34,000 nucleotides of DNA, from contig JAAYNQ010000036.1 in NCBI GenBank assembly GCA_012520725.1, positions 1 through 34,000 of the forward strand, given 5' to 3'. Below are positions 25,254 through 30,822 of the stretch, one piece after another. The notes below the pieces were generated by a model. That model had not been told where the DNA came from. It saw nothing but the letters and a program-made list of their open reading frames with translations, and did no database searches. Origin of the DNA: Syntrophomonadaceae bacterium (GTDB lineage Bacteria; Bacillota; Syntrophomonadia; Syntrophomonadales; Syntrophomonadaceae). The stretch's first letter is position 1; each line of letters opens with the position of its first letter. A program made the position numbers and the translations under genes.

Positions 25254-25979
25254 ATGAAGAAGTATATTGAAAAGGTTTATCTCCGGGAATACCCCGGGGC
25301 AGATTCATACCTATACCGGCTTCCGGTAGTTAAAAACCTTTGGAAAATTGGGGGATTGGATTTCACCAGTAGTGTAATTATTTTTGTCGGAGAGAATGGC
25401 ACCGGCAAGTCTACCTTACTGGAAGCTATGGCCATTGCCCTGGGATTTAACCCGGAAGGCGGCAGTAGAAATTTTCATTTTGCCACCAAGGATACCCACT
25501 CCGATCTGAATGAGTATCTGCGAATTAGTCGCAGCAATTATTTCCAAGATGGTTTTTTCCTGCGTTCAGAAAGCTTATACAATATCTCATCATATATTGA
25601 TGATAGAGATCCTGAAATCATATACAGTTACGGCGGCAAATCCCTTCATCATCAATCCCATGGTGAAAGTGTATTGACATTGGTTCAAAATCGCTTTGGA
25701 GGAAACGGCTTATATATTTTGGATGAACCCGAGGCGGCACTTTCCCCCTCCAGGCAGCTAACACTAATGGTGGAAATGAATCATTTGGTGAAAAACAACT
25801 CCCAATTCATTATGGCCACCCATTCTCCCATTTTAATATGTTATCCCGGAGCACAGCTGGTTGAACTTACCGAGGACGGAATTAATACGCTTGAGTATCA
25901 AGAAACAGAGCACTTCAAGCTCACTAAGCAATTCTTAAATAACCCGGAACAAATGCTAAGGTATTTGTTGCAGGATTGA
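25254..25979 (+). CDS. SMC/ABC-type ATPase (COG3910-like)
   Basis: This 241-residue soluble ATPase has Walker A GENGTGKST at 46-54, an ABC-signature-like SHGES near 136, Walker B LYILDEPEAALSP near 155 and an H-loop ATHSP near 185. It lacks a coiled-coil arm and any transport partner, so it is not a transporter subunit. It fits the family of stand-alone predicted ATPases with an AAA_23-like N-terminus. Such proteins are common in Firmicutes, often as single genes, and their role is unknown. Defence roles are reported for some related ABC-ATPases, but no partner nuclease or effector lies next to it. A GAGGAGTGCCAGGCAG site precedes the start. Confidence 0.8.
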   Translation: MKKYIEKVYLREYPGADSYLYRLPVVKNLWKIGGLDFTSSVIIFVGENGTGKSTLLEAMAIALGFNPEGGSRNFHFATKDTHSDLNEYLRISRSNYFQDGFFLRSESLYNISSYIDDRDPEIIYSYGGKSLHHQSHGESVLTLVQNRFGGNGLYILDEPEAALSPSRQLTLMVEMNHLVKNNSQFIMATHSPILICYPGAQLVELTEDGINTLEYQETEHFKLTKQFLNNPEQMLRYLLQD

Positions 25980-27660: not shown

Positions 27661-27760
27661 TAAAAGAAAGGGCGGGGAAACCCAGGGATTTATTTAGAAG
27701 GATAAAAGCATTTCTATTTTCGCATTAACCATTATAAGGCATAATTTCCTCTATCCTTGC

Positions 27761-27778
27761 GTACATTATGTACATAAT
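27761..27778. promoter_or_regulatory. TGTACA-core operator of the toxin-antitoxin pair
   Basis: GTACATTATGTAC (27761-27773) overlaps ATTATGTACATAAT (27765-27778), both perfect palindromes. Together they hold one exact TGTACA hexamer and one CGTACA near-match nine bases apart. YefM-type antitoxins recognise TGTACA cores in paired repeats, so autoregulation of the following genes is likely. A weak promoter, TTGCGT at 27757 with TATACA at 27778, would be covered by the operator. Confidence 0.65.
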
Positions 27779-27807
27779 ATACAATGGGGGTGAGGATGGT
27801 GATCTTT

Positions 27808-28218
27808 ATGGATATGATGCAGGCAACTAATGTTAGAAAAAATTTTTCATCGGTTATAGACACAGCGGTTAGAGATAGGCCGGTTATGTTTAAGCGCAAT
27901 AGAGATTATCTTATGTTACTATCGAATACTCAGGTTTTAAGTCTATTACGAGAGTATACTTTTAAAGCCCAATATATTGCTGAAGAAGACGAGACAATAA
28001 CCGCTGTATTAGATGGTTTTGATCTTGTGGTTAATGCTGCAGATCAGGAACAGGCAAGAAATATGCTTGCAGTTGAGCTTGTTGATTACGCGAAGGACTA
28101 CTTTGACCAATTCCAATTATATTATAACTCCCTTAATCGAAAAGAGCATTTTCCCTATATTTTGAGGGTACTGCTTGCTGAAGACTTGGATGAAGTTAAG
28201 GAGTTAATTAATGCCTAG
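27808..28218 (+). CDS. Phd/YefM-like antitoxin with unusual C-terminal domain
   Basis: This is a 136-residue protein when started at the ATG at 27808; ATG 27784, ATG 27796 and GTG 27799 are alternatives, and the purine-rich GGGGGTGAGG at 27786-27795 argues for one of the later ones. The N-terminal 45 residues (MQATNVRKNFSSVIDTAV...LLSNTQVLSLL) match the Phd/YefM DNA-binding fold. The C-terminal 80 residues are longer than usual in YefM. They contain an EDETITAVLDGFDLVVNAAD segment followed by a helix, which loosely recalls the HicB partial RNase H fold. The gene overlaps the toxin by eight bases and sits behind a TGTACA operator. It probably neutralises the HicA-like toxin and represses the pair. 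Confidence 0.75.
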   Translation: MDMMQATNVRKNFSSVIDTAVRDRPVMFKRNRDYLMLLSNTQVLSLLREYTFKAQYIAEEDETITAVLDGFDLVVNAADQEQARNMLAVELVDYAKDYFDQFQLYYNSLNRKEHFPYILRVLLAEDLDEVKELINA

Positions 28219-28429
28219 CTGGAGAGATCTCAAAAGATTTTGTGAACGAGACGGATGGGAACTGTATAAAACAACAGACCACTGGTATTATCGTAAATAT
28301 ATGCCTGATGGCACATTGAAAAGAACTAAAGTATCAATGGGGACGGGAGAAATAAAAAAGAATCTCTGGAAAGAGATTTTAAATAAACAACTTCAAGTCT
28401 CCATAGAGTATTTCAACGATAAAATATAA
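28211..28429 (+). CDS. HicA-like toxin
   Basis: This 72-residue basic protein resembles the double-stranded-RNA-binding fold of HicA mRNA interferases: WRDLKRFCERDGWELYK is the first helix and strand, His24 in TDHWYYRK fits the catalytic histidine position, and PDGTLKRTKV, then IKKNLWKEIL, form the strand and final helix. HicA toxins normally cleave mRNA and block translation and are paired with HicB antitoxins. Here the partner is Phd/YefM-like, overlapping by eight bases (ATG inside the antitoxin's last codons), which makes a mixed system. Activity is inferred from fold and context only. Confidence 0.7.
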   Translation: MPSWRDLKRFCERDGWELYKTTDHWYYRKYMPDGTLKRTKVSMGTGEIKKNLWKEILNKQLQVSIEYFNDKI

Positions 28430-28441
28430 TACGCATTTTTG

Positions 28442-28577
28442 TTCCGCCTGGGCCAACACCGGTCCAGACAGAACTATTTCCTTGTCTATTTTTTCCTTGC
28501 TTACGACATATCTTCTCTATATCTTTATGCTTCCAAGTAAACGTATACTCAATTATAACTCCGGAAAACCAAAAGCT
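28442..28577 (-). pseudogene. Truncated HicA-like paralogue (relic 1)
   Basis: On the minus strand EYTFTWKHKDIEKICRKQG continues through SSVWTGVGPGG and then loses similarity. It matches the ORF at 30459-30668 over its first half, with about 80 percent DNA identity judged by eye (30561-30693). It also aligns loosely with the HicA-like toxin next door through W-[KR]-D-[LIM]-x-[KR]-[IF]-C and the later PDG position. The missing second half and the lack of the His24 equivalent indicate a relic. It is convergent with the toxin gene, starting 13 bases after the toxin stop. Confidence 0.6.
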
Positions 28578-28673
28578 TGTAGAATTTTTCCTTATCACAA
28601 TAAGGAAATAATGGGATTACGAATACTGCATTTATTTTTGCCGATGCTGCATTTGATAAGCCGATTTATCCAC

Positions 28674-30458: not shown

Positions 30459-30668
30459 TTATTCTGCCGATCCATGTTTCACTGCTATCCTTAATATCTC
30501 ATTAGGCAATCCTGGCCCAACATTGCCAGTGTGTTTCGAATGAATAGTAGTAGTTCTTATTTTTCCGTCTGGGCCAACACCGGTCCAGACAGAACTCTTA
30601 CCTTGTTTTTCCATACCTGGCTTTCGACATATCTTTTCCATATCTTTCCAAGTAAACGTATAACCCAT
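30459..30668 (-). CDS. HicA-fold paralogue without antitoxin (relic 2 or orphan)
   Basis: A 69-residue minus-strand ORF begins GYTFTWKDMEKICRKPGMEK and contains SSVWTGVGPDGKIRTTTI and LPNEILR. It aligns with the HicA-like toxin at 28211 through W-[KR]-D-[LM]-x-[KR]-[IF]-C-x-[KR]-x-G, PDG-x-[IL]-[KR]-x-T and x-EIL. The catalytic-type His of the toxin is replaced by Val, though IHSKH adds others. No ribosome binding site or antitoxin gene lies upstream, so expression is uncertain. It is convergent with the C45 gene and is the full-length counterpart of the truncated copy at 28442-28577. Confidence 0.55.
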   Translation of the reverse strand: MGYTFTWKDMEKICRKPGMEKQGKSSVWTGVGPDGKIRTTTIHSKHTGNVGPGLPNEILRIAVKHGSAE

Positions 30669-30822
30669 TATGACTGCGAAAAACCAAAAAGCCTGTCAGC
30701 CCCTCCAAGGAGGATATAACAGAAAAAACCAGAATAGTAGATATATATGCCAAATTATAGCATATGTGGATTGTTCATTTGTTGGGGCCAGCCTTTAAAG
30801 AGTGGGGAGTGGAACATTATAT

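Follow-up and report, generated by a model that had tools for sequence, protein, structure and literature searches.

The two overlapping plus-strand genes found in the window (the whole 34,000-nt stretch of DNA analysed here), an antitoxin gene upstream and a toxin gene downstream, most probably form a type II hicBA toxin-antitoxin operon, a reading to which we assign a probability of about 0.88. According to this reading, the toxin would be a HicA RNase, while the antitoxin would repress its own operon through a Phd/YefM domain and mask HicA through a HicB-like domain. The module consists of the following features:

27761-27782 (no strand): palindromic operator, a 22-nt inverted repeat made of the overlapping GTACATTATGTAC and GTACATAATATAC
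27784-28218 (+): antitoxin gene, longest ORF, 144 aa
27786-27795 (+): Shine-Dalgarno-like GGGGGTGAGG, ahead of ATG 27808 (in-frame ATGs also at 27814 and 27817)
27808-28218 (+): antitoxin gene from the likelier start ATG 27808, 136 aa, PF12910 PHD_like
27808-27945 (+): predicted Phd/YefM-type DNA-binding and dimerisation domain, model residues ~1-45
27955-28110 (+): predicted HicB-like beta-beta-beta-alpha (partial RNase H) domain, model residues ~49-100
28111-28215 (+): C-terminal helical extension with the motif NR..H.PY, from the antitoxin family alignment
28211-28429 (+): HicA-like toxin gene, 72 aa, without the Shared Domain
28211-28218 (+): 8-nt gene overlap, ATGCCTAG
28280-28282 (+): His24 codon CAC, predicted catalytic residue, from hhalign and the toxin alignment

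The ATG at 27808 was taken as the likelier antitoxin start because the one at 27784 borders the palindrome and precedes the Shine-Dalgarno-like sequence; a purine-rich stretch resembling the latter also precedes the starts of homologous antitoxin genes. The toxin start lies within the end of the antitoxin gene, the 8-nt overlap observed here is identical in the closest relatives, and translational coupling through it is presumed. Each of the two genes is present as a single copy in the genome.

Within the operator, the first repeat (27761-27773) is an exact palindrome and the second (27770-27782) a palindrome with one mismatch. Of 35 non-redundant relatives, 26 carry TGTACA 5′ of the module, compared with a mean of 2.1 and a maximum of 6 in shuffled sequences and with 1 of 33 for a control region; the spaced form GTAC-N5-GTAC lay upstream in 18 of the 35 (shuffle mean 0.06). 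The TGTACA operator is real, and its conservation 5′ of the relatives goes far beyond chance. A consensus promoter was looked for at the operator, and none was found.

The antitoxin matched PF12910 (PHD_like) with 138.7 bits over model positions 3-140 of 141, i.e., over the full model and above the Pfam gathering cut-off of 27, and its PDB sequence match was 3k6q (E 2.6e-35), the crystal structure of a Syntrophomonas wolfei antitoxin (Swol_0700). At the N-terminus, a weak Pfam match to PF02604 (Phd/YefM) was obtained, this family being matched by 20 of the 37 antitoxin family members, and a profile built from the 37 sequences matched YefM (2a6q) in its N-terminal part with an E-value of 7e-4. 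Structure prediction with AlphaFold2 (pLDDT 94.4) gave the order strand-helix-helix-strand-strand-helix, followed by beta-beta-beta-long helix, and then by three more helices. When this model was searched with Foldseek, 3k6q was matched (TM 0.94, E 1.5e-15), followed by many Phd/YefM antitoxins over ~50 residues, with the N-terminus matching Phd 4zlx_A at a probability of 1.00 and an rmsd of 1.2. The central part was matched to the N-terminal domain of Burkholderia pseudomallei HicB (6g1c_V) with a probability of 0.84, an E-value of 2.0, and an rmsd of 1.3 across 51 columns. Aligned by hhalign with canonical HicB proteins of related genomes, the antitoxin reached a probability of only 31-39%, with a score of 27.8, whereas the best of 200 column-shuffled decoys scored 17.3 and a reversed-alignment control 11.5. 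Since the score exceeds that of all decoys despite the low probability, we consider the assignment of the predicted C-terminal fold as HicB-like to be sound but distant, and of modest strength. In the NCBIfam search, a ribonuclease H model and ThiF were matched, both far below their cut-offs; the former agrees with the fold and was left out of the evidence, and the latter was rejected.

The most conserved patch of the antitoxin family comprises Y93, N109, R110, H113, P115, Y116, and L122 (residues 93-122, window 28087-28176). In the alignment, N109 and R110 are invariant and H113, P115, Y116, and L122 nearly so; most of the patch falls in the C-terminal helices, which are absent from Phd and from the canonical HicB domain. 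No described role for the NR..H.PY patch was found in the literature. This helical cap, for which neither Phd nor the canonical HicB domain accounts, could be the real toxin contact, and a variant of the hicBA reading can be considered in which neutralisation is achieved mainly by the NR..H.PY helices and not by the HicB-like sheet and helix. The conservation of the extension, the highest in the family, and its absence from both Phd and the canonical HicB domain argue for this variant, whereas the RNase H-like domain is what contacts HicA in classical HicAB and in the Class 5 models (PMC10865869), and we regard it as rather unlikely. As a tentative and somewhat doubtful extension of the same idea, the PF12910 antitoxins might represent a separate HicB lineage whose NR..H.PY cap binds or inhibits the toxin, and in which a sister subfamily with a His-less partner may be a non-RNase module.

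The toxin scored 19.2 bits against PF07927 (HicA), which is under the Pfam gathering cut-off of 27, and the same model was matched at E ≤ 0.01 by 21 of the 36 toxin family members (best 4.4e-9); one relative (G082, locus L082) reached 36.3 bits and thus passed the cut-off. The comparison of the toxin profile with canonical HicA by hhalign gave a probability of 96.2; His24 coincided with the invariant His, and none of the decoys came near. The predicted structure (pLDDT 94.6) has the alpha-beta-beta-beta-alpha order of a dsRBD plus one short C-terminal helix, and its top PDB match in Foldseek was HicA3 (4p78_C, probability 0.93), with an E-value of only 0.079. By sequence, the HicA match in the PDB was very weak; matches to designed beta-trefoils were dismissed as repeat-driven, chance similarity being summed over the repeats. 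In characterised HicA proteins, the catalytic His is required for RNase activity or toxicity (reviewed in PMC11594946). By analogy with these, the 72-aa HicA-type toxin, with its dsRBD fold and His24, is a probable mRNA endonuclease. His24 is nearly invariant in the alignment of 36 toxins. It is replaced in three otherwise intact sequences (Y in L007 and L064, R in L074), which are possibly inactive variants.

The pairing of the two genes was observed in both directions. An intact relative of the toxin adjoins 38 of 44 distinct full-length antitoxins from Bacillota, mostly overlapping or within 3 nt, and a toxin-first search placed the antitoxin directly upstream in all 18 loci (18/18); gene order and junction are conserved among the relatives. 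Among the other six antitoxins, three are accompanied by a broken toxin (L016/L077, L017/L086, and L057), one (L030) has a different HicA-like ORF as its neighbour, and for two (L015 and L060) no toxin was found alongside. Intact antitoxins next to frameshifted, deleted, or missing toxins were seen at all of these loci except L030, which is what a costly toxin would lead one to expect. Both genes are under purifying selection in the relatives, with dN/dS values of ~0.03-0.27 in unsaturated pairs (dS is saturated in the window's closest pair). The nearest named relatives belong to Syntrophomonadaceae, and others were found in Heliorestis, Paenibacillus, Desulfotomaculum, and Oscillospiraceae. 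A search for a mobile-element home gave no sign of one, with no plasmid match, no viral contigs, and one partial match to a phage record, and no PADLOC model matched the antitoxin or the toxin.

These data also bear on the possibility that the HicA-like protein has lost its toxin activity and is maintained for a regulatory or RNA-binding role. The three aligned toxins without His24, the relatives that retain an antitoxin beside a broken or missing toxin, and a sister subfamily in which the HicA-like ORF lacks the His would fit such a loss; in the window, however, His24 is present at its nearly invariant position, and purifying selection on the toxin gene is strong among the relatives, which makes this explanation improbable. 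A relBE/yefM-yoeB type module, in which the Phd/YefM antitoxin would neutralise a RelE-fold toxin, is suggested by the name and description of PF12910 in Pfam (RelE / RelB TA system) and by the N-terminal Phd/YefM domain, but it is very improbable, as Pfam gives only HicA for the partner, 21 of the 36 members of its family match HicA, the toxin model has the alpha-beta-beta-beta-alpha order with HicA3 as its best fold match, by which RelE/RelB membership was rejected, and the antitoxin C-terminus is predicted to be folded and HicB-like, unlike that of YefM.

Several further HicA-like genes were seen. On the minus strand of the window there are two diverged copies of another one (30459-30668 and 28413-28598), the N-terminal parts of which are clearly alike (DNA alignment of 28436-28580 with 30557-30696). 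The ORF at 30459 encodes 69 aa, matches HicA weakly (13.1 bits), and has SSVW in place of the His. The copy at 28413-28598 is a degraded one whose ORF extends into the end of the toxin gene. Next to neither of them could an antitoxin be recognised. A subfamily of longer PHD_like antitoxins (~161 aa) overlaps an 81-aa ORF by ~52 nt (L026:1896-2141, L030 on the minus strand, and L053:1926-2171). This ORF (..KKWNGTDINGNFWQTYIHNHGDG..) is HicA-like by eye and lacks the catalytic His, and no Pfam match was found for it. Some 1.8 kb 5′ of the module, the window also encodes a small AAA_15/AAA_21-like ATPase of 241 aa (25254-25979, +), which has weak similarity to the defence ATPases AriA, PtuA, and GajA in PADLOC.

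The initial annotation, made from the sequence alone, had recognised a YefM-like antitoxin N-terminus, a YefM-style TGTACA operator, a C-terminal part possibly resembling HicB, and a HicA-like toxin with a His at the catalytic position, and all four readings were borne out by the fold matches (Phd 4zlx_A, 6g1c_V, HicA3), the profile comparisons, and the operator counts given above. Its statement that the overlap and the palindromes show a working operon went too far, as they indicate only a conserved, coupled, and probably autoregulated one. In the hicBA mechanism that we favour, an antitoxin dimer would use its Phd/YefM domain to bind the TGTACA palindromes (27761-27782) and would repress its own operon. 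The HicB-like domain would cover HicA and mask the active site, the 8-nt overlap would couple the translation of the toxin to that of the antitoxin, and loss of the antitoxin would leave a free RNase. The RNase activity, toxicity, neutralisation, and repression, as well as any role in defence, are here inferred by analogy with characterised HicAB and Phd/YefM systems and with the published Class 5 models.

Among known systems, the module is a further member of the published Class 5 hicBA (Gerdes 2024, mBio, PMC10865869). In this class the antitoxin gene comes first and often overlaps hicA, and the HicB protein carries an N-terminal Phd/YefM domain together with a partial RNase H domain, for which an A2B2 complex was modelled (PMC10865869). 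All features of the class that were assessed were found in the module, i.e., the antitoxin-first order with overlapping genes, the N-terminal Phd/YefM domain, the central partial RNase H-like HicB fold, and a small single-domain HicA without the Shared Domain, the last of which sets Class 5 apart from Class 6. No decisive difference was found, the comparison being with the published architecture, of which WP_078438722.1 and WP_217700609.1 are example sequences. The mixture of domains, which the initial annotation had implicitly treated as new, has therefore been known since 2024, and for the antitoxin family both a Pfam entry and a crystal structure already exist. The domain swapping it had proposed stands in so far as domains from two antitoxin classes are mixed, but what was found is a widespread Bacillota family and not a one-off swap.

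The closest structural counterpart of the antitoxin is its full-length homologue Swol_0700 (PF12910/3k6q), which shares the same fold (TM 0.94); several of the module's close relatives belong to the same genus. Pfam ties PF12910 to RelE/RelB, whereas the partner here is HicA-like; this description looks wrong for the lineage examined (Bacillota), in which the partner should read HicA. In the Class 5 literature that we found, neither the link to PF12910/3k6q nor the conserved C-terminal cap is spelled out. The module independently backs the Class 5 grouping in Syntrophomonadaceae and other Bacillota, and it connects this grouping with a family for which a crystal structure (3k6q) is available.

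With classical hicAB (Classes 3/4; Escherichia coli, B. pseudomallei, Yersinia pestis HicA3) the module shares a dsRBD-type HicA with the catalytic His and a HicB-like neutralising domain. In those systems, however, hicA comes first and HicB ends in a C-terminal HTH or RHH, whereas here the order is reversed and the DNA-binding domain is of the Phd/YefM type and N-terminal, which sets the module outside Classes 3/4. From yefM-yoeB and phd-doc it differs in its toxin, which is HicA-like by both model and searches and not of the RelE/YoeB or Doc type, and in the folded HicB-like C-terminus of the antitoxin, while the DNA-binding domain and the TGTACA-type operator are shared. The module offers a compact system for testing how a repressor domain of the Phd/YefM type works once it is joined to a HicB inhibitor domain.
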